In this document: piece by piece, positions 20,203 to 46,853 of the stretch
How the letters are laid out: each line of letters opens with the position of its first letter
Position numbering within the stretch: the first letter of the stretch is position 1
Assembly: GCA_016185505.1 (NCBI GenBank)
Contig: JACPNL010000010.1
Span: 1-55,825, forward strand
Direction of reading: 5' to 3'
Length of the DNA stretch: 55,825 nucleotides
Origin: Candidatus Yanofskyibacteriota bacterium
Lineage (GTDB): Bacteria; Patescibacteriota; Minisyncoccia; 2-02-FULL-40-12; GWA2-44-9
Program-made: the position numbers and the translations under genes
The notes under the pieces: generated by a model
What the model was told of the DNA's origin: nothing
Database searches by the model: none
The model's input: only the letters and a program-made list of their open reading frames with translations

Positions 20203-21360
20203 TTACAATATTATTCCCCCTCCGAGAAGCTGCTGACCTTTATAAAATACGGCTGATTGACCGGGGGTTACGGCTGACTCTGGTTTTTTGAACACGATTT
20301 CGCCACTATTTTTTACAACCGCTTTAGACAACGGCGCCCTATAGCGCGTCCGCGCATCCAACTCCTCGCCCCTGTGGATAAACGACTTGCGAAGTCGTTT
20401 ATCCACAGGTTGAGCTATTGGATTTATCCAGTTTATAGCGGTTAATTTGAAATTTTGAGAGAGTAGATCTTTCTTCGAACCGACGTAAATGATGTTATTT
20501 TTGATATCTTTCCTAACAACAAAATAGGGGCCCTTGCCGTTCTTTATATCCAGACCGTGCCTTTGGCCGATGGTATAGTAGAACACGCCATCGTGTTGTC
20601 CAACAACACGCCCTGAGCGAGCAAAACGAGTCGAATGGGCAACATCCAACAAGATAATATTTCCGATCTTTGGCTTGATATAATTTTTTAAAAATTCTTT
20701 CATGTTTAACGGCCCGATGAAGCACACTCCCTGGCTATCTTTCTTGTCAGCCGTCGACAGGCCGAATTTTTTAGCCATTCTCCTAACCTCCGGTTTTGTA
20801 TAGTCACCAATCGGAAAGAAGCAATGTTTCAACTGCCTCTGGGTTAAGGTCCAGAGAAAATAGGATTGATCTTTGTTCTGGTCAACAGCTTTTAATAATT
20901 TATAGTCATTAATTTTTAATTTTTCATTTTTATTTTTTAATTTTCTTATGTAGTGTCCCGTCGCAATGTAATCCGCTCCTTCTTCCAATGCCTTCTCCAA
21001 AAATAGCCCGAACTTGATATGCTTATTGCACATTACATCCGGATTAGGCGTTTGACCGGTTTTATATTCTCGTATCATGTAGTCAGCCACTTCTTTTTTA
21101 TATTCTTGTGAAAAGTCCCACGTCAAAAGAGGAATGCCAATTTTTGCCGCTACCCGCATCGCGTCTTCTCGGTCTTGCTTCCAAAGACACCTGTGGATAA
21201 ACGACTTCGCAAGTCGTTTATCCACAGGTGGGCTCCATGGTTTCATAAAAACACCGGTTACATCGTAACCTTGTTTTTTCAACAGAGCAGCAGCCACAGA
21301 AGAGTCAACTCCTCCGGACATAGCAACATAAATCTTTTGTTTTTTAACTTGACGTTTCAT
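20203..21360 (-). CDS. mnmA: tRNA-specific 2-thiouridylase MnmA
   Basis: Puts sulfur on wobble U34 of Lys, Glu and Gln tRNAs. AMSGGVDSSVAA is the PP-loop; MCNKHIKF and GVCFIG carry the two catalytic cysteines; FYTIGQRHGL is present. At least four foreign in-frame stretches occur: PPVDKRLAKSFIHR after the MKPW segment and QPVDKRLRKSFIHR near the C-terminus (both DnaA-box palindromes, opposite orientation), VAHSTRFARSG from a CTCAGG-type word, and a Lys/Asn-rich stretch KNKNEKLKINDYKL from AT-rich spacer words. All keep the frame and avoid the catalytic motifs. Confidence 0.95.
   Translation of the reverse strand: MKRQVKKQKIYVAMSGGVDSSVAAALLKKQGYDVTGVFMKPWSPPVDKRLAKSFIHRCLWKQDREDAMRVAAKIGIPLLTWDFSQEYKKEVADYMIREYKTGQTPNPDVMCNKHIKFGLFLEKALEEGADYIATGHYIRKLKNKNEKLKINDYKLLKAVDQNKDQSYFLWTLTQRQLKHCFFPIGDYTKPEVRRMAKKFGLSTADKKDSQGVCFIGPLNMKEFLKNYIKPKIGNIILLDVAHSTRFARSGRVVGQHDGVFYYTIGQRHGLDIKNGKGPYFVVRKDIKNNIIYVGSKKDLLSQNFKLTAINWINPIAQPVDKRLRKSFIHRGEELDARTRYRAPLSKAVVKNSGEIVFKKPESAVTPGQSAVFYKGQQLLGGGIIL
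20371..20409. repeat. DnaA-box palindrome in mnmA (copy 2)
   Basis: CCTGTGGATAAACGACTT GCG and complement, 18-bp arms. The loop is GCG on the + strand, so the copy is inverted relative to the other two. It holds two opposed TTATCCACA boxes. Confidence 0.9.
21188..21230. repeat. DnaA-box palindrome in mnmA (copy 1)
   Basis: 20-bp perfect arms CACCTGTGGATAAACGACTT around CGC; two opposed TTATCCACA boxes; in frame. Confidence 0.92.
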
Positions 21361-21989: not shown

Positions 21990-23357
21990 TTAATCAAATA
22001 TTTTCAGCTCTCTTATCATTCTAAATTTCCTTAAAAAGTCCCTAGTTTCGGGCACCGCTCCGCGAGAGTTTAAGTCCAACCCGCCGGTAGTTAAATTATA
22101 CTTACTTGGACCGCCGTTATATATCATTCCCCTTACTTCATTTAGTTGATCCGGGGTTAAACCGTTAAACACCGCTCTGGCCCGTGAACCCCCGTTTTGA
22201 ACTCTATTTACAACGGTAGCCATGTGGTCGTCAAATACAAGAATTTGGGCCTTTATGGAATTTTTTATATCAATCCTGCCGATATCGGTATCTTTTATTA
22301 AATTGGCGGAAAGAAAACCGACAACCATGCTGTCATAAGTGCGGGGCATAATTTGGTTGGCGCCGGAGGCGCCGGTCTTAGAAACGGTATATCGAAACGC
22401 TTTTTCTCCATTGGCGCCGAAACGCCACAAAACTCTTTCAGCCTGTTCTCGGCCGCCATCCTCCGATGCAAACATCAGTTTGGGATCTGTTTGTTCGGTT
22501 AGGGTAATTTCTTTAACGAATTTCTGGGTCATCGTGTCGGTAACTAATTTACCCGGAAAAGCCTTGGATTCAACTCCGGCTTTTTCTAACTCCTCAAACG
22601 CTTGCGCGACATGAATATCTAGAAAGTCCTTACCGGAATCAACTATCGCGGGATCGCGTACTGACTTAGAATAAGGCGCGTATACAACATCAGAATATTT
22701 AGGGCCGGTCTTATCTTCGAGATATGCCAGACCGTCGTTACTCATCAAGAACTTATTGCCGATAACAATATATCTTGCCGGCTCACTAATCTTAACCTCA
22801 TCTGACTCAAGAACCGATCCAACAACGCCTAGATCAGAATTAAAATTATTCCACCAATATACAACAACCGATAGCTCGTCTTGATCATCCACGGGTTGAA
22901 AATAAGGCATACTTGTAGGATTCGGTTCGTAGTTTCTTCTCATTCTGTTGGCAATTTGTATCTCTTTTTCGTCCAGCCAATAGCGTCTAAGAAAGACCGC
23001 GCCCGCATCCGCGCTTATATTTGTATCAAGAATAGCTAACTCAATTTCTTTGCCGGTTAATCTGTTGTTTTTTTCTTCGAATTGAAGAGAAGGAGATTGT
23101 TCAAGATATGTTTTTGCCAATTCCATTTGATCAGCCAGAGTCCAGACGGGCATTTGAGGCAAAGGCGATACTTCAAGGTCAATAGTCTTACTCGGCAACG
23201 CCTCGGATATTTGAGCGGCTATTTGCGCGGATAGTTGAGTATATTTGGCGCCCAAAACAAATGCTGATATCACGAGAACTGTTAAAACAAGGAGAAGAAT
23301 TTTGCCGGGAAATTTTTTGAGTTGCATTTTGAGTTGCCTTAGTTTATCAAAGGACAT
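21990..23357 (-). CDS. Membrane-anchored SLT-like (lytic transglycosylase) protein
   Basis: 455 residues. An N-terminal membrane helix (ILLLVLTVLVISAFVLGA) is followed by a long extracellular region and a C-terminal goose-lysozyme/SLT-like segment. There, SKTGASGANQIMPRTYDSM matches the S..GA.G..Q..P.T signature and IYNGGPSKYN the AYNAG-like motif. It should act on peptidoglycan. The first residues (MSFDKLRQLK) are a CCTTTGATAAACTAAGGCAA repeat word, so the true start may be the ATG at 23327, which has AAGG upstream. It follows another transglycosylase-like gene on the same strand. Confidence 0.7.
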   Translation of the reverse strand: MSFDKLRQLKMQLKKFPGKILLLVLTVLVISAFVLGAKYTQLSAQIAAQISEALPSKTIDLEVSPLPQMPVWTLADQMELAKTYLEQSPSLQFEEKNNRLTGKEIELAILDTNISADAGAVFLRRYWLDEKEIQIANRMRRNYEPNPTSMPYFQPVDDQDELSVVVYWWNNFNSDLGVVGSVLESDEVKISEPARYIVIGNKFLMSNDGLAYLEDKTGPKYSDVVYAPYSKSVRDPAIVDSGKDFLDIHVAQAFEELEKAGVESKAFPGKLVTDTMTQKFVKEITLTEQTDPKLMFASEDGGREQAERVLWRFGANGEKAFRYTVSKTGASGANQIMPRTYDSMVVGFLSANLIKDTDIGRIDIKNSIKAQILVFDDHMATVVNRVQNGGSRARAVFNGLTPDQLNEVRGMIYNGGPSKYNLTTGGLDLNSRGAVPETRDFLRKFRMIRELKIFD

Positions 23358-23369
23358 AGGAGTAAATTA

Positions 23370-23580
23370 ACATAATTAACCTAATTATTCTAATTAACCT
23401 AATTGACCTAAATAAATCCTCCCGATTTTGTCTGCTTCGCAGAAACAAAATCGAGGATCCTCGATATTCGCAAGCGAATATCGGGACAATGACCTAATAA
23501 CCAATGCCTGAAGGTTTTAGACATTAAAAATTAGGTATTATTTAGAATAATTAGAGCAATTAGAATAATTAGAATAATTT
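23370..23580. repeat. AT-rich dispersed repeat, copy A (interrupted)
   Basis: TTAACCTAATTATTCTAATT...GACCTAAATAAATCC on the left and TTATTTAGAATAATTAGAGC on the right, forming a long imperfect stem between minus-strand genes. Copies at 42899-43040 and 46272-46416. This copy contains the 67-bp element at 23420-23486. Confidence 0.75.
23420..23486. repeat. Double-hairpin element with TCGAGGATCCTCGA core
   Basis: TCCCGA, a hairpin arm pair (TTTTGT...ACAAAA), core TCGAGGATCCTCGA, a second hairpin (TATTCGC/GCGAATA), TCGGGA. The uninterrupted repeat at 46272-46416 reads straight through this point, defining the element ends exactly. Confidence 0.85.
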
Positions 23581-23581
23581 T

Positions 23582-24913
23582 CTATAGGTTCTTTTCTATC
23601 TCATCAGCCTTGTTCAAAACAGTTCTTGAATAATAGTTACATATGCTTGATGAGCACTTCGTGCTGCCTCCGATATACGCGCGGGCCGCGCCGCTTTCGG
23701 CTGTCCTTGTTTTTTTGTCTGCTCCTCCATTAGCTAATTTGATTGCCGAGGCCATAAAAGCATCCTCTATACTCCACGGATTTGGCGGATTGTGGCCGGT
23801 CAGGCGCGCTACTTCTTCCGCGTAAGCAAGCCACGTTGACGGTATGAATTGGGCCGGCCCCATCGCTCCGCCGCAACCGTAATTTGGTTCGCGGGATACC
23901 TTAACGGAGTTAGGATCAATGCCCAGTTGGCTGGTTATCTTTAGAAAGGCTGCTTCCTCCGTGGCCGCTCTCTGATAGTAATAAGTTCTCCTGTGCGGAT
24001 ACCAGATATCGCCTAAACGCCTGTAGCAAAGGACCATATCGTCCTGCCAATTGCCGGAGCCAACATTCTGTCCAAGACGGGACTCTATTTCCAAAATGGC
24101 AAGCAGGAACGCCGGCCTTATACCGGCTCTGATAGCGGCAAGTTGAGCATACCTTACCGCGTCTTCAGCGGTAATTCCGTGTTGGGTAAGAAAGGTCAGC
24201 TGTTCCCTGATTTTTTCTATATCTCTCTGCGATTTTTGGATCAGTTCCTGAAATTTTGATTCTTGCCCTTTTGTTTCTTTCAGTATGGTATCCTTTTCTT
24301 TTTTATTGATGTCCAAACTCCTTTTCTGAACCGCTTGGATCCCGATTAAATGTTCCAAGTCGGTCTTTTTCCCCTCCAACGAGATTTGGCGGTCTTCCAG
24401 ATCAGTTTTCAGTTGCCTTATGTTCTGGATGGCAATCTTTAGATTATCCTGGGTATTCGCAAGGTCATTAAGATAATTAAAAAAATCGGATAGATTTTCA
24501 TTATTGAATAAAATTTCAGTCAGCGTGATCTGATCGTTCTGATAGGCAATTTTTAGGTATTGAGCCAGAGCGTTTTTGTGTTTTTCTAGCGCTTGTTCCG
24601 ATTCGCCTATTTGTTTTTCTGTCTCCCCTATTTCTAATTTTGTTTTACTTACGGAGAGCTCAAGCCCCCTGATCTCAAGGGTTATTTGGTTAATCTTCGC
24701 GTTCAATTTCCCTATCTCGTTTTCAAGAGTTCTTGATTGTCCCCGAGTTATGTCTATCTGGCTTTGGTATTCATTAATCTGCCTCTGCAGCTCTTCTATC
24801 TGCCTCTGGCGTTCGGCTATCTCATCCTGCACGCCTGCTTTTCCATCCGATACAAAAATTGACAACGACAAAACTACCAAAAAAATAATCAGAAATTTTA
24901 TATATTTTTTCAT
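23582..24913 (-). CDS. Coiled-coil lytic murein transglycosylase
   Basis: About 443 residues from ATG 24913; the track start adds MWYVVSSKE, which is spacer-word sequence. Signal peptide or membrane anchor (FLIIFLVVLSLSIFV), then ~230 residues of coiled coil with the RQRQIEELQRQINEYQSQ heptads typical of EnvC/NlpD-type regulators. The C-terminal transglycosylase domain has AILEIESRLGQNVG (catalytic Glu) and CGGAMGPAQFIPSTW. It cleaves peptidoglycan, perhaps for division or for assembling the pilin-like secretion apparatus encoded nearby. Same strand as the SLT-like gene, 224 bp apart. Confidence 0.8.
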   Translation of the reverse strand: MKKYIKFLIIFLVVLSLSIFVSDGKAGVQDEIAERQRQIEELQRQINEYQSQIDITRGQSRTLENEIGKLNAKINQITLEIRGLELSVSKTKLEIGETEKQIGESEQALEKHKNALAQYLKIAYQNDQITLTEILFNNENLSDFFNYLNDLANTQDNLKIAIQNIRQLKTDLEDRQISLEGKKTDLEHLIGIQAVQKRSLDINKKEKDTILKETKGQESKFQELIQKSQRDIEKIREQLTFLTQHGITAEDAVRYAQLAAIRAGIRPAFLLAILEIESRLGQNVGSGNWQDDMVLCYRRLGDIWYPHRRTYYYQRAATEEAAFLKITSQLGIDPNSVKVSREPNYGCGGAMGPAQFIPSTWLAYAEEVARLTGHNPPNPWSIEDAFMASAIKLANGGADKKTRTAESGAARAYIGGSTKCSSSICNYYSRTVLNKADEIEKNL

Positions 24914-25010
24914 TTCTTTACTACTCACTACATACCACACTCTACTTACCGCTATCTCACTGTTGATTATATCACATGACTCTTAAAGCGATATATCGTA
25001 TAATTTGATT

Positions 25011-27044
25011 ATGATGTTACTCAATAAAAAAGCAACGCGTTTTTTAACTATTTTAATACTCTTGGTTATTTCTGGAGCTTATTTAACTTCAGATATTTCT
25101 GCCGCCCCAAACGAAGAATCAACCGTCATTCAAATAAACAATCAAAACCCCGGCCTGATAAGCAGCACTCCGGATATTTTTACCAACCTTGTTGCCTGCG
25201 CTCTGTGGCAAAAAGACAGCAACTGGGGACGAAACGGCAAACGAGGCAATCCTAACGATTTAAGCAATGACGCTATCGCCTATAAAAATTCTGCCAGCAT
25301 CGGCCTTGGCGGAGTGGATATTATTGATATTATAGGCGGCGTTGACGGACCCGACCCCCAGCCCGGTTGGATTGATGTCACCCAGCCGGGTGTTGCCGGC
25401 GTTTGGGTCAAGCCAGATCCCTGTAGCGGCGCCGGAGGGCCGCCCGGTCCGGGCGGTGGAGGCGGCGGTGTTCCAGTCGGCTCAAATCTTGGTATTAGCG
25501 GTGATACATTCACTATCGGCGGAGTTTCTAAATTTTTGGTTCTAGCTTCATATTTTGACGCCTTAGACGCTTCTAACCTCGGCGGCGATTTAGATTATCT
25601 AAAATCAAAAGGAATTGACGGGATAAGAATATTCCCGAACTGGTGGGATTTTGATCCGGATAGCCAGACCTTTAATCCCGGAAACACCCTAATGGACGTA
25701 AATGGGAATATTAGTAGTAGCCGCATGAGCGATCTGTTAAGCGTTTTAAGCGCGGCAAAGAGCAGAAACATGATAGTAGACGTAACTTTTGCCAGAGAAA
25801 CAGTGCCCGGACCATGCGACGGGGACAGAATCCCAAATGTAATGTGCATGTCCGAATTTATGGAAGGAACAGAATCGGCAGTAAGACAGATTAACTCGGC
25901 CGGATACGGCAATGTGTTTTTTGACATCCAAAACGAATTTGAACAATTCAACTTTTCAAATTCTGACTTAATAGCGATTAAAAATAGAATTAAAAGTGTA
26001 AATTCAAATTTTATAGTTTCCGCTTCAGAAGTCGGGGGCGGTTCCGGCATCGCGGTGAGCACCGGCATGGACATAGTGAACACTCACGAACCCAGAGACA
26101 ATTGGCCCTCAAGTGTCTCTAGCGTCGTCTCCTCTGCGACTTCAACCAGAAAGCCAATTTATCTTGGCGAGTCGGCCAGAGTTGGCGATGGAGCCGACAG
26201 TACTCAAGAGTTCATCACCGCTGTAAGCGATACAAAAAGAGCCGGCGGAGCGGCTTGGACTTTTCATAGCCGAGCTAATTTTAATCTGGACAACTCATCT
26301 TTACAGAACAATTATAACCAAATAGAGAAAGATTTTCTTGACCAGTTTTTGTCTTCATTAAACAGGGTCACTTGGGGCGCAACGGGAATAACGAGCGGAG
26401 GCGGAGGAACCCTACCACCCCCCGGTCCCGGCCCGGGGCCAGCGCCAGAACCATCCGGCCCTCCAATTATTAACGGCATTAGCCCGCAAAAAGCGGTCGT
26501 GGGAGAAACGGTAGAAATTATCGGTTCTAATCTGACAACATCCGTAAAACTAGAAAATCTTGAAAACGAAAATTTCTATACAATTACCGCGTTTGTTCGT
26601 CAAAATAATACGATTGCTTCCTTTCAAGTACCTGATCTTTCAGGCGGTGTTTACAAAATTTTTAGTTTAAGTCCGCAAGGAGACACGGAAAGTCCGCAAA
26701 ATCTTACAATCAGGTCAGGCGGCAATCCTTTCGGTCAGTCGGTCCAGCCCACCATCCCAACTGAAGGACTATTGGGATTCGGTCAACTTATAGCAATGAT
26801 CTTCACCTGGTCTCTCAATATTCTGGGCATTGTTGTTTTCGTAATGATATTCTTTGCCGGATTTCAGTGGTTCACCGCCGCCGGCAATACGGCAAAAGTA
26901 AATGAGGCCAAGTCCAGAATAACCAATGCGATCACCGGAGCTCTTATCCTTCTGGCGGCGTGGATAATATTATATACGATAAACCCTGATCTGGTCGGGG
27001 GCACGTTCACTTTGCCGGGGGCAGGGATAGAAAATAGTAATTAA
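25011..27044 (+). CDS. Secreted glycosidase-like protein with IPT and pilin-like tail
   Basis: About 677 residues; ATG 25011 lies just after a TATAAT box. Order: signal peptide; a Gly/Pro-rich linker (GGPPGPGGGGGG, ~145-155); a TIM-barrel region like GH5 cellulases (DYLKSKGIDGIRIFPNWWDF, FFDIQNEFEQFNF with NE as candidate acid/base, PIYLGESARVGDG with candidate nucleophile E); a Pro-rich linker; an IPT/TIG-like beta domain (PIINGISPQKAVVGETVEII); and a C-terminal tail with two membrane helices (LIAMIFTWSLNILGIVVFVM ... ALILLAAWIILYTI) matching the VirB2/TrbC pilin layout. The tail is nearly identical in DNA to that of the next gene. Confidence 0.7.
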   Translation: MMLLNKKATRFLTILILLVISGAYLTSDISAAPNEESTVIQINNQNPGLISSTPDIFTNLVACALWQKDSNWGRNGKRGNPNDLSNDAIAYKNSASIGLGGVDIIDIIGGVDGPDPQPGWIDVTQPGVAGVWVKPDPCSGAGGPPGPGGGGGGVPVGSNLGISGDTFTIGGVSKFLVLASYFDALDASNLGGDLDYLKSKGIDGIRIFPNWWDFDPDSQTFNPGNTLMDVNGNISSSRMSDLLSVLSAAKSRNMIVDVTFARETVPGPCDGDRIPNVMCMSEFMEGTESAVRQINSAGYGNVFFDIQNEFEQFNFSNSDLIAIKNRIKSVNSNFIVSASEVGGGSGIAVSTGMDIVNTHEPRDNWPSSVSSVVSSATSTRKPIYLGESARVGDGADSTQEFITAVSDTKRAGGAAWTFHSRANFNLDNSSLQNNYNQIEKDFLDQFLSSLNRVTWGATGITSGGGGTLPPPGPGPGPAPEPSGPPIINGISPQKAVVGETVEIIGSNLTTSVKLENLENENFYTITAFVRQNNTIASFQVPDLSGGVYKIFSLSPQGDTESPQNLTIRSGGNPFGQSVQPTIPTEGLLGFGQLIAMIFTWSLNILGIVVFVMIFFAGFQWFTAAGNTAKVNEAKSRITNAITGALILLAAWIILYTINPDLVGGTFTLPGAGIENSN

Positions 27045-27070
27045 GTAATTAGGTAATTGTGTAATTTTTT

Positions 27071-29221
27071 ATGAAAAAATATTTACCCATCGGCTTCTTT
27101 TCTCTCCTTTATCTTTTTAGTATCTCTCCTGTAGCCGTTGCAAATACTTTGCCCGCGCCTAACCACTCTATTTTTTTTGGTTACTATCATGCGGACGCTC
27201 AATACGGCGATTTTAAAAATGAAGTCAAAGATTACACGAACACTCAAATAATTATCGGCGATAGCTGGATCAGGCCGCCTGATGTCGCGGAATCGGATAT
27301 CCAGAAATTAAACGAAGCTCTTAGCGAAACCGCCGCTCTCGGCCAAAAAATTGTTCTTATTCCTTCGGGTGATTTAGATATTATACTGAATGCGGCTGCG
27401 CCATTTTGGGATAATGTCGCGTTTATTTATTTTGCCGATGAACCGAATTGGGATAAAGCCACAACCGAGGAAAATATCGGCTCATTTAAAAATAAAATTC
27501 GCAGGGCCGGGCTTTCTCAAAAAGAAATTGCCATAAATTATACTCCTGAACAGATACTTTCAGGAACGGGGTACCAAGCCGGTAATTTGAATATAGTCGG
27601 ATTTGAAGCATATGTTGACCCCGCGCAACAAAATAACCAGGATATCGTCGCTGACTTAAACGCGCAGATAGACAATCTCAAACAAAAAATAGGCAATAAA
27701 CAAATGTTCATCGTAATTCAGGCCTACGACAGAAATGGGGATTGGAAAAATATAACCTCACTCCAAAATATTCAAATACCGCCCTATCTGGCCGCTTATA
27801 ATGACGAACGTGTCATCGGATTGCTGATGTTCTCTTATGCCAGACCGGGAGGCACGCGGGATAACCCTATCTTAGCAGAACAGCATCGTTTGATCTGGCA
27901 AGCGATGCAAGGATTAACTGTTGACGTTGATCCTAAGAATATACCGGCCGTTGCGCCTACAAGCGTCTGGAGTCCTTCTCAAACCAATAACGGCTGGTGG
28001 CCGTCTTTGTCCCCGGACGGCAAATACGTTGCCTATGGTAATTTCGGCGAGAGCTGGGTAACTGACCTTTCAACTGGACAAAACTATGACCTTTCAAAGC
28101 CAGCAGGCCTGCCAGATGGAGCCCGTTGCAGGGGCGGACAATGGATAACATCAAGCAAGGTCACTTTTATTTGCGACAGCATTCCGGGGATAACTGGATT
28201 TTACCGATATGAAGCAGCCATTGGCGAGTGGATAGCGAGAAAAACCGATGACGACCCGAACAACGTAGTGAGCAGTATATTTGTCGCAAAAGACGGCCAC
28301 TGGGCATCTTTCTTAGCTCTAACCAGAATTATTAAAGACAACACAGTCCTTACCGATAACCAACCCGGAGGGGCAATAGCCATAAGCGGTGACTTGCTAG
28401 TAAACGCCTGCACCAACGAGAACCAGCAGATCTGCGTATGGGACAGGACTAACCTTTCTACGTCTTACGATGTCAGAACTCCCTTATTTGAAATGGATAT
28501 GGAAGATGGATATATTACTTATGGCGGATTTGGACCGATCCGAGGTATAGACCCGAGCGGAAAAGATATTGATCTGACGGCAACTGCCTGGAAACGAGAA
28601 GGATCGCCAAGAGTATTAATGGTCAACGGACAACCTTGGGTCGCCACTTATACTTGGGACGACACGTTGGGAGTTTCCAACGTATTGATCCGGCCGTGGG
28701 GAGAAAGAAAAAGTATCGTCTTGCAAATGGATGCGGCATCTTTAAGCGTGGTTTACACAAACGGAAACTTCATAGTTGCGGCTAATAACGATCGGGGCGG
28801 ATTAATAGTTCAAACCATCCCCGCGGATTCGCCAAGAGTTGATCTATCAGGCGGCTTGCCGTCAGAAACACCGGGGTTAAGTCCTGCAAACAAAAAGAGC
28901 TTTTCAAGTCCGGTTTTACCCGTTATCCCCACTGAAGGCCTCCCTTCTTTCGGCCAACTTATAGCCACGATCTTCACCTGGTCTCTCAATATTTTGGGCA
29001 TTGTGGTTTTTGTCATGATATTCTTTGCCGGATTTCAGTGGTTCACCGCCGCCGGCAATACGGCAAAAGTAAATGAGGCCAAGTCCAGAATAACCAATGC
29101 GATCACCGGAGCTCTTATACTTCTTGCGGCGTGGATAATATTATATACGATAAACCCTGATCTGGTCGGGGGAGTACTTACGCTACCGGGGGTAGGAACG
29201 GAAACAGAAACTGGAAATTAA
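27071..29221 (+). CDS. Secreted barrel/propeller protein with pilin-like tail
   Basis: 716 residues. Signal peptide; a ~260-residue TIM-barrel-like region (FFGYYHADAQYGDFKNEV, FIYFADEPNWDKA, FEAYVDPAQQ, LLMFSYARPGG) that recalls glycoside hydrolases; then a beta-propeller-like region (WWPSLSPDGKYVAYGNFG and further blade-like repeats); a linker; and the same two-helix VirB2/TrbC-like tail as the preceding gene. The gap is 26 bp, so the pair is an operon. The tail probably holds the enzyme at the membrane or in a fibre; catalytic residues are not assigned. Confidence 0.65.
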   Translation: MKKYLPIGFFSLLYLFSISPVAVANTLPAPNHSIFFGYYHADAQYGDFKNEVKDYTNTQIIIGDSWIRPPDVAESDIQKLNEALSETAALGQKIVLIPSGDLDIILNAAAPFWDNVAFIYFADEPNWDKATTEENIGSFKNKIRRAGLSQKEIAINYTPEQILSGTGYQAGNLNIVGFEAYVDPAQQNNQDIVADLNAQIDNLKQKIGNKQMFIVIQAYDRNGDWKNITSLQNIQIPPYLAAYNDERVIGLLMFSYARPGGTRDNPILAEQHRLIWQAMQGLTVDVDPKNIPAVAPTSVWSPSQTNNGWWPSLSPDGKYVAYGNFGESWVTDLSTGQNYDLSKPAGLPDGARCRGGQWITSSKVTFICDSIPGITGFYRYEAAIGEWIARKTDDDPNNVVSSIFVAKDGHWASFLALTRIIKDNTVLTDNQPGGAIAISGDLLVNACTNENQQICVWDRTNLSTSYDVRTPLFEMDMEDGYITYGGFGPIRGIDPSGKDIDLTATAWKREGSPRVLMVNGQPWVATYTWDDTLGVSNVLIRPWGERKSIVLQMDAASLSVVYTNGNFIVAANNDRGGLIVQTIPADSPRVDLSGGLPSETPGLSPANKKSFSSPVLPVIPTEGLPSFGQLIATIFTWSLNILGIVVFVMIFFAGFQWFTAAGNTAKVNEAKSRITNAITGALILLAAWIILYTINPDLVGGVLTLPGVGTETETGN

Positions 29222-29227
29222 GAAATG

Positions 29228-29258
29228 GACTTCGCAAGTCCGTTGGACTTGCGAAGTC
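29228..29258. repeat. GACTTCGCAAGTCC palindrome, copy 1
   Basis: 14-bp arms around GTT. The same element, with flank TTAACG, lies at 43790-43820. Its arm GACTTCGCAAGTC is also the tip of the DnaA-box palindrome. Confidence 0.8.
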
Positions 29259-41753: not shown

Positions 41754-42893
41754 CTAGCTCGTTAATTCGATGACTGCCAACTCTAACGGCAACTGCGGGA
41801 CGGGAGAGTGTTTTATCTCATTTCGAGCATTGGAAAAACTAACTATCATTTTAATCAACCGTTGGCTATCTACGCTTTGCCCCAGCGTTGAGATATTTTT
41901 TGTTTCCTCGTCGTTCATACCGCTTACGGAAGCAAGCACGGCCGGATTTATTTTTGCCATCAGAACGTTTCTTAGATACTCCACCAAATTGCCGGTGAAA
42001 TTTTCCATATCAGCCCCGGACATATGAATTTTTTGGATAACTTCCATAGAGCCAACCCTGTCATTATTTAAAAGACGGCCAAGAAATTCTGGGTAATATT
42101 TATACGAAACCAAACTCAATATTTCGTTCACGTCTTCAGCGGAAACCTCTTTGTTCGGATCAACGGAAGCATGGATTTTAGTCAGAGCCACTTCCGCGTC
42201 ACGCAACGCTCCGTCGGCAGACATGGCTATGGTTTTTATCGCTTCGTCATTTATCTTAATCCCCTCTTTACCGGCCATCATTTTTAATTTTTCAGAAATT
42301 TGGCCATGATTTAACCGTTTGAAATCAAATCTTTGCACACGGGATAATACCGTCGGCAATATCTTGTGCGGTTCGGTCGTAGCAAGAATAAAAATAACAT
42401 GCGCCGGCGGTTCTTCAAGCGTTTTTAATAAAGCGTTAAAAGCAGATTTTGAAAGCATGTGAACCTCGTCAATGAGAAATATTTTGTATCCCCCGCCCGG
42501 CGCGGCAACCATCGCCGAATCGTTCAGCTCCCGGATATCATCAACCCCCGTCCGCGAAGCGGCGTCTATCTCAATGAGGTCAAGTGAATTCCCCTGACTC
42601 GCGGCAAGACAAAAATGGCAGTTATCACACGGCTCCGTTAACACAGCTTCCGGCCTTCGGCTATCTGCTTTCAGCTGATTGCCGATTACTGGTTGCTGGT
42701 TGCGACGATAGTCACAGTTAAGCGCTTTAGCAAAAATACGGGCCAAAGACGTTTTGCCGGTCCCTCGAGAACCGGTGAATAAATAAGCGTGGCCCACCCG
42801 GCCGCTCTCTAATGCTCCTTGCAGGGTCTTTACTACATGCTCTTGACCCACTATTTCCGAGAATTTTTGCGGACGATACTTACGATATAACAT
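41754..42893 (-). CDS. dnaX: DNA polymerase III subunit gamma/tau
   Basis: Clamp-loader ATPase. 379 residues, lacking the long tau tail. MLYRKYRPQKFSEIVGQEHV is the hallmark start; GSRGTGKTSLARIFAKALNC is Walker A; EPCDNCHFC belongs to the zinc module; FLIDEVHMLSKSAFNALLKT is Walker B; ATTEPHKILPTVLSRVQRFDF holds the SRC-like arginine finger (SRV here). A foreign stretch (YRRNQQPVIGNQLKADSRRP) lies inside the zinc module, in frame, from a GGTTGCTGGTTGC/CAGCTGA spacer word. Confidence 0.95.
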   Translation of the reverse strand: MLYRKYRPQKFSEIVGQEHVVKTLQGALESGRVGHAYLFTGSRGTGKTSLARIFAKALNCDYRRNQQPVIGNQLKADSRRPEAVLTEPCDNCHFCLAASQGNSLDLIEIDAASRTGVDDIRELNDSAMVAAPGGGYKIFLIDEVHMLSKSAFNALLKTLEEPPAHVIFILATTEPHKILPTVLSRVQRFDFKRLNHGQISEKLKMMAGKEGIKINDEAIKTIAMSADGALRDAEVALTKIHASVDPNKEVSAEDVNEILSLVSYKYYPEFLGRLLNNDRVGSMEVIQKIHMSGADMENFTGNLVEYLRNVLMAKINPAVLASVSGMNDEETKNISTLGQSVDSQRLIKMIVSFSNARNEIKHSPVPQLPLELAVIELTS

Positions 42894-42898
42894 AAAAA

Positions 42899-43040
42899 AT
42901 TAACCTAATTATTCTAATTGCTCTAATTGACCTAAATAAACCCTAATGACCGAATAACTAATGACCAAAGGTTTGAGGATTAGACATTAGAAATTGTGAT
43001 TTATTTAGAATAATTAGAATAATTAGGTTAATTAGAATAA
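42899..43040. repeat. AT-rich dispersed repeat, copy B
   Basis: Same TAACCTAATTATTCTAATT...GACCTAAATAAA start and TTATTTAGAATAATTAGAAT end as copies A and C, between the GtrA-like gene and dnaX. Confidence 0.75.
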
Positions 43041-43041
43041 T

Positions 43042-43695
43042 TTATTTTCGGAATACTGTCATCTTGACTCCTATAAAACTTACCACTAACGCCGCTGCCG
43101 AACCGGCGATTCCGCCGGCATTGGCCCACTGATCACTGCTCAAGTCGAACATTGGATCTAAAAAATTTACTAAACCAGAAGCTATTCCAATATTCACAAG
43201 TCCGGCGATAATGTAAGCAGTAAAAAATTTTCCCAACTCTGCGGCGTTAATTTTGTTTTCCTCGCCAGAGGCGTTAACGCCCACCAGAGGCGGGTCAACC
43301 TCTGGTTGAGAAAATACCCAGAATTTGTTCCAAAAATAACTGTGAAATGTTGCTATAATAAACGCCGACGCGACGAAAATTGAATACCATAATCCCTTAT
43401 TTATATCCGACCAAGATATTAAAACATTCAAAATCCCAAAATATACCGCCGCGTTGGTAAAACCAACAGCAGAAAATTTGCCGAACTGACCGAAGAATGC
43501 CAGCCACCGCCCCAAAAAATATCCAAGATTTACCCCCAGTATCCAAAGAATGGGAACAAAAATAATCAACCAAGCATAAGATACACTGACAAATTCCGGC
43601 AATTCAAGAAAAACAAATATCCGCCACGCGATCAAACCGGTTATGAGTCCGGTTATTACTGAAAAATAAAAATCTTTGCGAGAAAATTGATGCAC
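43042..43695 (-). CDS. GtrA-like polytopic membrane protein
   Basis: 217 residues with about six membrane helices. FGKFSAVGFTNAAVYFGILN and SYFWNKFWVFSQ match the two signatures of GtrA-like proteins (FlippASe candidates for lipid-linked sugars). An extra pair of helices precedes this domain. PPLVGVNASGEENK is probably an in-frame insertion made of two CCAGAGGCG words. Lies between the ATPase gene and dnaX on the same strand. Confidence 0.7.
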   Translation of the reverse strand: MHQFSRKDFYFSVITGLITGLIAWRIFVFLELPEFVSVSYAWLIIFVPILWILGVNLGYFLGRWLAFFGQFGKFSAVGFTNAAVYFGILNVLISWSDINKGLWYSIFVASAFIIATFHSYFWNKFWVFSQPEVDPPLVGVNASGEENKINAAELGKFFTAYIIAGLVNIGIASGLVNFLDPMFDLSSDQWANAGGIAGSAAALVVSFIGVKMTVFRK

Positions 43696-43789: not shown

Positions 43790-43820
43790 GACTTCGCAAG
43801 TCCGACGGACTTGCGAAGTC
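43790..43820. repeat. GACTTCGCAAGTCC palindrome, copy 2
   Basis: 14-bp arms around GAC. Flanks match the reverse complement of copy 1 at 29228-29258 over ATTAAC as well. Confidence 0.82.
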
Positions 43821-43830
43821 CTCTACTGCG

Positions 43831-46266
43831 CTACCCACTACTACCTACTGCGCTGAATTTAGATTTTATCTCCTCCTCTACCTCTTCCCTTGGCCGGCCG
43901 TATTTTAATTTTGACATTTTGTTTATTTCCAGAGCCAATTCTCTGTCACCGGCGCCAAATACCTTTTCGGTATCAACTTTAATATTGAAAGGGCGGGTCG
44001 TCTGGCCACCAACCAATAAACTAGCATAAGCGTTTAAGTTGTCTATGTTGACGAGATCTTGCGGAGTGAAAACCGGTTCAAATTTATTCTTCATAAACTC
44101 GGCGTCATCCGGACCAATCCTGAAAGAAATAATGGAGCCGACATTGCCGAAAACAGCGTCTCTAATCCCTTCCTTAAGTTGTTTTATAAATTGATGGGCA
44201 ATAACCAGATCGAGGCGATACTTTCGCGCTTCCGATAATATCGTTGAAATACTGTCAGTAGTGAAATTCTGAAACTCGTCAATGTAAAGATAAAAATCCT
44301 GGCGCGTTTCATCCGGAATATCCACGCGCGATAAAGCCGCCATCAAGAGCTTGCCGACAATGATCATACCGAGGAGATCTGCGTTCAGAGCGCCTATTTT
44401 GCCCTTGGACAGATTAACCACCAGAATTTTCCTGTTATCCATCGATTCCCGAAAATTTAACGCGCTCTTTTTCTGATTTATAATCGGACGCAAAAATTCG
44501 TTGTAAACAAACGAGGTTATTTTTGAAGAAATATAAGGGGCCATGTTTGCCAAACTTTGCTCGCCTTGCGCTTTCTGCGCTTCAAGTTCCCAGAATTCTC
44601 TAACCAAAGGATTTGTCTCGCGAGAAAGTTTGTCTTTTCTGTAAGCGTCGTCAACCAAAACTCGTGAAATATCAGCCAATACAGGAATTTCATAACGATA
44701 ATCGTCAAGCAAAAGCAAAGCGGAATTCTTGAAATATTTTTCAAACATCGGTCCGCCGGTTGTTCTTAAGTCATACAATTTATTAAATATCTCAAAGAGT
44801 TCGTCTATAACCATTGTTTTTTGCTCGGGATGATCAGGGTTTATCTCAAGCATATTCAAACCCATCGGCCGGGAAATATCACCGGGATCAAAATAAACAA
44901 CATCATTAGTTCTGTCTTTGGGAATAATAGATAAAACAAATTCAGCAAATTCTCCGTGCGGATCAATCACGCAAACCCCTTTGCCGTTCTCTATGTCCTG
45001 CCGAATCATTGACTCCATAAAAACCGACTTGCCCGTGCCGGTCTGACCGATAATATACAAATGCCTTCGCCTGTCGGCATCACTCATTTTGACTAATGTT
45101 TCAACGCCTCGAAAAATATTTTTGCCTAAAACAATCCCCTCCTGTGGCAGATTCGGCGGTGGTTCGGCCGGCTTAGAACGCAAGAATTTTATCCTCGGCG
45201 CAAGAGTGGACGCCAACGGAAAGTGATATAAACTGGTTATTTCTTCCGAGGACAGAAACGTAGACTGCGAATTGTCAAAAAGCCGGAAAGAAAAATTAAA
45301 TAATAACTTTTTTAGCGTTCTGGACGACATATTGATTATTTTTAGACTGTTCATCTCGCCGGCCGCGAACTGCGCTAGTGAACCGTCTATGTCCCCAAGC
45401 AGTTGTTTAGCCCTCATCTCGCTACCAGCCGAAACAACCACCCTTATATTTGTATCAAAAAGCGGCTTCGTCGCCTTGGACTGAATGTTTTTGATTATCT
45501 CCTCGTCAAATGGCGTAACAACACGAAGTTGTTGGTTGTCAGTTGTTGGTTGTTGGTCTTTCTTCGGCTTATGCTTAGCTCGAGACAACGCCTCTGAAAA
45601 CTTATACCCCGATTGCATTTCACGAGCTGTTTTTTGAGCAAGTTTCCGCATATCATCCCGATGCGACGGCCGCATCAATATCTGAACAGCCGCACCTTCG
45701 CCTTCTTTTTCAAGTTTGGACAAAGAAGTGGCTATCTCGCTTAATGGATCGGCCTGCAAATTCTGATATGTCTTGAAGGGTAATAGTGGAATTTTGGACA
45801 GTTTCACATACGCGCCCAGCGCGACGCCGTCAGGATTGAATATATTATAGTCCTTAACTTTCTCCACCTCCGCGGTAGGGAAAAATCCATGAACTTGTTT
45901 TTCAAATACCTGCTCATACGTCTTGGGAACAGCTATGTAGAAAAATATCTCCTCGCCAACATGATGAACCGCCATTTCAAGGGAAATATACGGCTCGCCA
46001 TAAATAAATTTATTCCAACCCCTTGAGTGGATATTGGAAAAAGACGAATACAATTGCTCCATTACGGAAATAAGGTCTTTTTCGGTTTTCTGTTGCGCTT
46101 GCCCTGATCCTGTCGAAGGATCGCGCGGAAGAGTTATCAAAAAAAGTGACATATTGAGCGCCCTTGCTATGTGACCCTTGGTCCTCAAGGAACCAAACAA
46201 CACCAAAGCGGCGACAAAGATAATGGCGATGACAACTAAGTAAGTAATTATCAAAAACAGAGACAA
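43831..46266 (-). CDS. VirB4/TraC-HerA-type conjugation ATPase
   Basis: 811 residues. N-terminal membrane helix (FLIITYLVVIAIIFVAALVLF), ~350 residues of upstream domain, then a P-loop ATPase: YIIGQTGTGKSVFMESM (Walker A), GVCVIDPHGEFAEF, DFYLYIDEFQNFTTD (Walker B) and LDLVIAHQFIKQL (sensor/Gln motif). This fits the type IV secretion coupling/VirB4-like family used by these bacteria for pili or DNA transfer. Two in-frame word insertions: RDPSTGSGQAQQ near residue 50 and KKDQQPTTDNQQLR near residue 230. The 46407 gene lies just upstream. Confidence 0.82.
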   Translation of the reverse strand: MSLFLIITYLVVIAIIFVAALVLFGSLRTKGHIARALNMSLFLITLPRDPSTGSGQAQQKTEKDLISVMEQLYSSFSNIHSRGWNKFIYGEPYISLEMAVHHVGEEIFFYIAVPKTYEQVFEKQVHGFFPTAEVEKVKDYNIFNPDGVALGAYVKLSKIPLLPFKTYQNLQADPLSEIATSLSKLEKEGEGAAVQILMRPSHRDDMRKLAQKTAREMQSGYKFSEALSRAKHKPKKDQQPTTDNQQLRVVTPFDEEIIKNIQSKATKPLFDTNIRVVVSAGSEMRAKQLLGDIDGSLAQFAAGEMNSLKIINMSSRTLKKLLFNFSFRLFDNSQSTFLSSEEITSLYHFPLASTLAPRIKFLRSKPAEPPPNLPQEGIVLGKNIFRGVETLVKMSDADRRRHLYIIGQTGTGKSVFMESMIRQDIENGKGVCVIDPHGEFAEFVLSIIPKDRTNDVVYFDPGDISRPMGLNMLEINPDHPEQKTMVIDELFEIFNKLYDLRTTGGPMFEKYFKNSALLLLDDYRYEIPVLADISRVLVDDAYRKDKLSRETNPLVREFWELEAQKAQGEQSLANMAPYISSKITSFVYNEFLRPIINQKKSALNFRESMDNRKILVVNLSKGKIGALNADLLGMIIVGKLLMAALSRVDIPDETRQDFYLYIDEFQNFTTDSISTILSEARKYRLDLVIAHQFIKQLKEGIRDAVFGNVGSIISFRIGPDDAEFMKNKFEPVFTPQDLVNIDNLNAYASLLVGGQTTRPFNIKVDTEKVFGAGDRELALEINKMSKLKYGRPREEVEEEIKSKFSAVGSSG

Positions 46267-46271
46267 GGTAA

Positions 46272-46416
46272 AATTAAATTATTCTAATTTCTAATTAACC
46301 TAATTGACCTAAATAAATCCCAATGACCTAATGCCTAAAAACTTATTTCGCTATTTGGGTATTAGACATTAGTCATTATTTAGAATAATTAGAGCAATTA
46401 GAATAATTAGGTCAAT
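46272..46416. repeat. AT-rich dispersed repeat, copy C (empty site)
   Basis: Reads AAATAAATCC directly into CAATGACC, the uninterrupted form of the site that in copy A holds the 67-bp double-hairpin element. Confidence 0.8.
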
Positions 46417-46853
46417 TTTTCCAGTTTCTTTCTTTCCACTAACATATTATAAAGTTCATCCACCAAAACATCATGGAACGCGTCTATGAGAGCGGGATTA
46501 TTAGACCTTACGGCTTCTTTGACGCCGTCGTCCAGTCCTTTATTGAAAACCATATTAATAAGCGCCTGAACTTTTTCTTTCAACTCCGGCAAAACATAAC
46601 TTAACGCGCTGTCGTCAAGTCCAACTTGGCCGTCGTCCTGTTGCGGCCGAGTCGAACTGGGCTGGGGCTTGGTTGGCGACGGTTGATACTGTGGGATTTG
46701 CTGTTGAATTTTTTCTCCGATAATTTCACGCAGGGTTTCTTTTTCGTGTGGCGATTCCGGCGCCACCTCGCCATGTCCCAAAGCCGCGCGCTTTTCGGCG
46801 ATCTGTTGTTCCAGTTGCGCTATCTCTTGTTCAATAGTCGGCTGATTTTCCAT
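46407..46853 (-). CDS. Hypothetical partner of the conjugation ATPase
   Basis: 148 residues: N-terminal coiled coil (IEQEIAQLEQQIAEKRAALG), a Pro/Gln-rich linker (QQQIPQYQPSPTKPQPSS) and a C-terminal helical domain (LPELKEKVQALINMVFNKGL, ALIDAFHDVLVDELYNMLVE). No membrane segment. It directly precedes the ATPase gene, separated only by the dispersed repeat, and probably works with it. Family not recognised. Confidence 0.65.
   Translation of the reverse strand: MENQPTIEQEIAQLEQQIAEKRAALGHGEVAPESPHEKETLREIIGEKIQQQIPQYQPSPTKPQPSSTRPQQDDGQVGLDDSALSYVLPELKEKVQALINMVFNKGLDDGVKEAVRSNNPALIDAFHDVLVDELYNMLVERKKLEKLT

Follow-up and report, generated by a model that had tools for sequence, protein, structure and literature searches.

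Pilin-type tails on two large surface proteins of a Yanofskybacteria-type Patescibacterium and their possible role at the type IV secretion system

We analysed positions 1 to 55,825 of contig JACPNL010000010.1 (this stretch of 55,825 nucleotides is referred to here as the window) from a Candidatus Yanofskybacteria-type Patescibacterium, the assembly of which (GCA_016185505.1, here G000) comprises 681 kb and is 95% complete. The window contains two neighbouring open reading frames on the plus strand, genes A and B, which encode proteins of 679 and 716 amino acids, respectively (Table 1); position 25011, chosen in a preliminary description of this DNA, is an alternative start for gene A. The N-termini of both proteins read as signal peptides, with a basic start, a hydrophobic stretch and an AxA-type end. 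The genes show no match to each other outside their 3' ends, where they carry a direct repeat of 256 nucleotides with a DNA identity of 91%, the longest repeat in the window. The preliminary description had portrayed them as two unrelated secreted proteins, one GH5-like and one combining a barrel with a propeller, whose C-termini are nearly identical even at silent positions, and the analysis bears out this portrayal.

Table 1. Coordinates of genes A and B, their domains and adjacent features in the window
Feature	Position	Strand	Basis
Coiled-coil and SLT_2 lytic transglycosylase, divergent from A	23582..24940	-	SLT_2 2e-11; locus comparison
Gene A: signal peptide, GH5-like domain, IPT/TIG-like domain, pilin tail	25005..27044	+	Open reading frame, Pfam, model, Foldseek
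GH5-like (clan A) domain of A; candidate catalytic Glu codons 25935 (NE) and 26169 (GE)	25485..26381	+	Alignment, Foldseek; Pfam Cellulase in relatives
IPT/TIG-like beta domain of A	26460..26720	+	Strands in model; TIG in relatives; window copy below threshold
Pilin tail of A, two long helices, INPDLVGG motif	26748..27041	+	PF18895 38.4 bits; helices 589-624 and 629-659 in model
Homogenised DNA tract, copy 1	26778..27033	+	Repeat search, stepwise identity
Gene B: signal peptide, TIM-type barrel, beta-propeller, pilin tail	27071..29221	+	Open reading frame, Pfam, model
Barrel domain of B	27164..27907	+	Alternating strands and helices in modest-confidence model; 60-66% identity to relatives
Beta-propeller of B	27959..28855	+	Model; weak PD40
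Pilin tail of B	28919..29218	+	PF18895 42.3 bits; helices 627-659 and 664-694 in model
Homogenised DNA tract, copy 2	28949..29204	+	Repeat search, stepwise identity
Palindrome directly 3' of B, possible terminator	29228..29258	.	Repeat search

When A and B are compared in steps of 30 nucleotides, identity stays at chance level (5-10 of 30) up to about 240 nucleotides upstream of the INP motif (see below), reaches 27-30 of 30 over the helical hairpin of the tail, and drops again at the gene ends, a profile that confines the homogenised tract to the shared module. Within a 73-residue core, the tails are 99% identical in protein and 96% in DNA; this identity extends to 31 of 36 fourfold degenerate sites and to 60 of 68 codons for the same amino acid. 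A chance repeat was ruled out as the origin of the tract by the repeat length and by the stepwise profile, and an assembly chimera was rejected since the two tails, on a single contig, differ at about 9% of sites.

Profile searches revealed that both tails match the T4SS_pilin family PF18895 of the type IV secretion system (T4SS), in each case above the curated cut-off of 26.6 bits, and that this family is found in all of 26 diverse tails. Furthermore, the TrbC/VirB2 family (PF04956) is matched by nine of 100 full-length relatives at E<0.01, the best at 3e-6. Predicted models of both tails contain two long helices each, and the second helix is followed by the diagnostic motif I-L-x-T-I-N-P-D-L-V, after which we refer to this as the INP subfamily. 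The loop between the helices carries a net positive charge in 24 of the 26 tails, while each flank is positive in two of 26, a distribution which predicts that both tail ends lie outside, as in VirB2. Invariant positions are kept across the 26 divergent tails. In a tree, the window tails group with INP pilins, and a single INP clade apart from the array pilins (see below) was not rejected (p=0.64, on few columns). A sequence-profile search of solved VirB2 structures with the tail gave no match. Being 679 and 716 amino acids long, A and B are not small mature subunits of the kind that defines VirB2-like pilins, and hence are not classical pilins. The VirB2-type character attributed to the tail in the preliminary description is thus supported by both families and by the presence of the same subfamily within virB6-prgI-virB4 operons of relatives, and the surface display proposed there is consistent with the signal peptides and the predicted topology.

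The two heads are of different kinds. That of A gave no Pfam match at E<1, but four of 100 relatives match Cellulase (PF00150; best 1e-7), and Foldseek aligned its model with GH140, GH5, GH157 and other clan-A enzymes at E values of 3e-11 to 1e-8, with TM-scores (normalised to the target) of 0.5-0.6 against GH5 mannanases. Residues E311 (NE) and E389 (GE) are aligned in the GH5-like homologues of three other genomes (G001, G027 and G012) and are assigned a catalytic role by motif. The head of A is GH5-like and a candidate sugar-cleaving enzyme. The head of B is modelled as an alpha/beta barrel, with modest confidence, followed by a beta-propeller. The models, which were built on trimmed alignments, are of moderate confidence (mean predicted local distance difference test score about 62).

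The same two heads occur in identical order in G001, of the same genus as G000, and in G027, of a different genus, and in both genomes the paired tails are again nearly identical to each other (35 of 36 and 27 of 30 fourfold sites, respectively). Between genomes, in contrast, the tails have diverged (for example, 14 of 34 fourfold sites are identical between G000 and G001). Accordingly, a DNA tree groups the tails by genome (supports 100/100, 99/99 and 86/93), and approximately unbiased tests reject the A-tails as a single clade (p=2e-9), as well as the A-tails or the B-tails of G000 and G001 as clades (p=9e-5 and 6e-6). The heads follow another pattern: the GH5-like heads of G001 and G027 share 69% identity, as compared with 44% between G000 and G001, and the corresponding values for the barrel are 68% and 60%. 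A grouping of G000 with G001 was rejected for the GH5-like head (p=2e-4) and was borderline for the barrel (0.048), in a tree from which the row of G019 was excluded, with the same result. The tails, which are 88% identical between G000 and G001, thus track the genome, whereas the heads do not. These data strongly support homogenisation of the tail by recombination while the heads diverge or are exchanged, either by conversion of the tail between A and B or by the joining of new heads onto resident tails. Such concerted evolution is not universal, as the tails of the pairs L197/L237 and L228/L230 are orthologous. A mirror image of the layout is seen at L191 and L224, where a constant N-terminal pilin, with 94-100% identical module DNA, is followed by differing C-terminal heads.

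The genomic position of these genes is also conserved. A homologue of the transglycosylase encoded upstream of A lies divergent from the pilin-tailed genes, mostly within about 200 nucleotides, in 18 of 18 genomes of the source organism's family with a readable flank; in the remaining family genomes the contig ends at this flank. These are metagenome-assembled genomes with gaps, and this one family was examined in depth. At this locus the head varies: G000, G001 and G027 carry the GH5-like and barrel-propeller pair, G020 and G007 a propeller, G002 a tail with IPT only, and G003 no head at all (133 amino acids). With tail and locus constant and the head changing, a secretion-system pilin appears to serve these cells as a mount for interchangeable surface tools. 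Of two transglycosylases previously proposed for the window, this one is confirmed by its SLT_2 match, while the frame at 21990-23357 has no Pfam match; the conjugation-type ATPase proposed alongside them is indeed present, as a HerA/TrwB-type protein at 43831-46266.

The T4SS of G000 is encoded near dnaA on contig C7 and includes VirB4 (583 amino acids), PrgI, a VirB6-like protein and others. The genome holds seven pilin domains, namely those of A and B and five on contig C32, among them a 309-residue protein with an N-terminal domain. A nucleotidyltransferase-like and HEPN-like gene pair within this array (L008:11011-11672), assigned by eye, may be a toxin-antitoxin system. To place the INP pilins in a wider context, they were sampled by the pilin motif alone across 84,980 species, each represented by a single genome, and the best 80 of 266 matches were considered. 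In 31 of 79 loci, virB4, prgI or virB6 lies within 6 kb, against the roughly 2-3% that we estimate for chance. One genome has the order virB6-prgI-virB4-INP pilin-propeller protein (G031), and seven others have a similar one. Among 96 INP pilins, 85 are extended: 63 at the C-terminus, 8 at the N-terminus and 14 at both, with 11 standing alone. Those within T4SS operons bear C-terminal extensions of 62-677 amino acids in 34 of 40 cases; hence, extended pilins are normal genes of T4SS operons. The fused domains comprise S8 protease, SLT, M23, NlpC/P60, C39, GH5 and Ig, and motifs point to HExxH metalloproteases and VanY-like enzymes in further extensions. VirB4 and PrgI were not found in G027, G035, G038, G049 and others, genomes that may be incomplete. 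G040 has a long masked stretch, and a frame of 24061 amino acids in it was discarded as a run of N.

One fusion deserves separate mention. On contig C32 of G000, a 661-residue protein (L008:13377-15362) starts with a pilin, which is followed by three He_PIG domains and an SLT transglycosylase, and is a VirB2-VirB1-type fusion. Pilin and SLT in a single frame were counted in at least 18 of 58 relatives in our table, and in at least 19 genomes when G000 is included. This bears on the report that most genomes with VirB2 lack VirB1 (PMC12102498, available portion), an absence to which the fusion offers an answer. At the other extreme of size, giant proteins with an N-terminal pilin hairpin were seen in more distant Patescibacteria (L261:3-9917, 3305 amino acids; L262:367-14409, 4681 amino acids; L263:32-10093, 3354 amino acids); their frames contain no masked bases, and each lies beside a pilin fusion of 650-760 amino acids.

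Our preferred explanation, which we hold to be probable if only moderately so, is that A and B are T4SS pilins bearing ectodomains, whose hairpin docks surface enzymes at the secretion system. According to this proposal, Sec would export the N-terminal heads, the apparent glycosidase and the barrel-propeller; the VirB2-type hairpin would then insert into the membrane, its charged loop facing inwards and its two ends outwards, and would dock the head to the T4SS, where the hairpin could be a lateral subunit in the membrane or a minor component of a pilus or channel. Heads docked in this manner would act at cell-cell contacts, their target being the envelope of a host to which the cell is attached or the wall of the cell itself. 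The docking at the T4SS, a constraint on the tail to match the resident machine and the use against the host are the steps that we infer. Some observations weigh against the proposal. Known pilus geometry leads us to estimate that a VirB2 helical filament could not accommodate heads of 450-600 residues on each of its subunits, so that a homopolymer is unlikely and the hairpin more plausibly serves as a minor subunit or docks laterally; homogenisation alone, moreover, requires no function. A and B lie on contig C8, away from both the T4SS operon and the array pilins, and in G027, which is 96% complete and has the A/B pair, neither VirB4 nor PrgI was found, through loss or an assembly gap. Finally, pilin hairpins on proteins of 3305-4681 amino acids look like anchors. 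The separate position, the situation in G027 and the diversity of proteins bearing the hairpin equally suit the main rival, in which the hairpin descends from a pilin but has lost its interaction with the T4SS and simply anchors varied surface proteins in the membrane. We regard this as a serious possibility, though not as the probable one. Drift would be expected of a plain anchor, but no other part of the proteins is as conserved between G000 and G001 as the tail, positions within the tail are invariant across divergent copies, and extended INP pilins are linked to T4SS operons; it is this conservation relative to the heads, together with the operon linkage, that favours docking. An ordinary anchor with no likeness to VirB2 would have told against the preliminary description; the module does occur on many unrelated surface proteins, but it has VirB2 similarity and T4SS linkage.

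Two further explanations appear very improbable to us. The short tract, the high identity and the single pair of copies per genome would fit one recent duplication, by which B captured the tail of A or the reverse, with no repeated conversion. However, three genomes with homologous heads in the same order each have their own near-identical pair of tails, so that one recent event is insufficient, and the rejection of an A-tail clade leaves, of the "recent duplication or gene conversion" previously suggested, conversion or an equivalent recombination. Repeated capture of heads onto resident tails is possible, and is likewise recombination. It is similarly hard to credit that the tail is an export tag, by which VirB4 would extract pilin-tagged enzymes and the T4SS deliver them to the host as effectors. 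Membrane extraction of VirB2 by VirB4-type ATPases is known from model systems, the heads are enzymes and propellers, and the genome encodes a T4SS; but signal peptides already export the heads, folded heads of 60-70 kDa would need release or unfolding, and no cleavage site is seen between head and tail. Returning to the docking of heads at the T4SS, a more far-reaching picture can be offered tentatively, as we consider it doubtful in its entirety. Patescibacteria might assemble their T4SS surface structure from tool-bearing pilins, VirB2 hairpins by which wall- or glycan-cleaving enzymes (including the seemingly lacking VirB1 function) are presented where the cell meets its host. Lineages would swap heads at one fixed position next to a lytic transglycosylase, and recombination would keep the tail compatible with the resident machine.

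Pilins of Patescibacteria are already known, and the large enzyme fusions on them are apparently the new part. In the available portion of PMC12102498, VirB2 of the Patescibacteria T4SS is a small protein, encoded in arrays of 2-11 pilins. A and B resemble these pilins in family (PF18895, PF04956), two-helix hairpin, predicted topology, signal peptide, the presence of a T4SS in the genome and the proximity of the subfamily to virB4 in relatives, but large fused domains and homogenised tails go unmentioned in that portion. Pilins encoded with a monoderm-type T4SS are likewise found in Ca. Southlakia epibionticum, where the pilin array is essential for epibiotic growth (PMC10633639); A and B differ from that array in their large size and in being encoded apart from the T4SS cluster. 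Related Yanofskybacteria-type Paceibacteria live as parasites on archaea, namely methanogens, and the accessible text on them (PMC10936435, PMC9600506) describes conserved arrays of secreted hypothetical proteins and, in Minisyncoccaceae, T4SS-pilin proteins among highly expressed secreted genes of unknown function; it draws no link from pilins to fused enzymes or to paralogous tails. Multiple T4SS pilin copies per genome, discussed as variable surface proteins, are also known in Bartonella and Anaplasma (as cited in the available portion of PMC12102498), although there, as far as that text goes, the small pilin itself varies, whereas in A/B-type genes it is the fused head that varies, on a constant pilin. 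We found no description of pilin-enzyme fusions in Patescibacteria in the open-licence literature; a prior account may exist elsewhere. The means by which these tiny cells penetrate their hosts or draw nutrients from them are poorly understood; their T4SS is essential in the one species tested (PMC10633639). If the proposal is correct, pilin-fused enzymes would give this system a concrete job and a tool list that can be read for each lineage. Furthermore, with the pilin staying the same while heads change at one locus, a comparison of heads across lineages would allow host specificity to be tested.

The window also contains dispersed repeats. A near-perfect palindrome of 37-44 nucleotides, CTGTGGATAAACGACTTCGCAAGTCGTTTATCCACAG, has 17 copies in the genome, with window copies at 2699-2742, 20370-20413 and 21189-21232. 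These three lie inside genes, one in alaS and two in mnmA, with the in-frame reading PVDKRLxKSFIHR, and call to mind the palindromic elements that are found within protein-coding genes of Rickettsia. Hairpins with the GACTTCGCAAGTC core of the coding palindrome are found outside annotated genes, directly after B (29228-29258) and at 43790-43820. Finally, AT-rich inverted-repeat elements (AATTAACCTAATTATTCTAATT...) are dispersed between genes at 23365-23581, 42892-43044 and 46275-46420.

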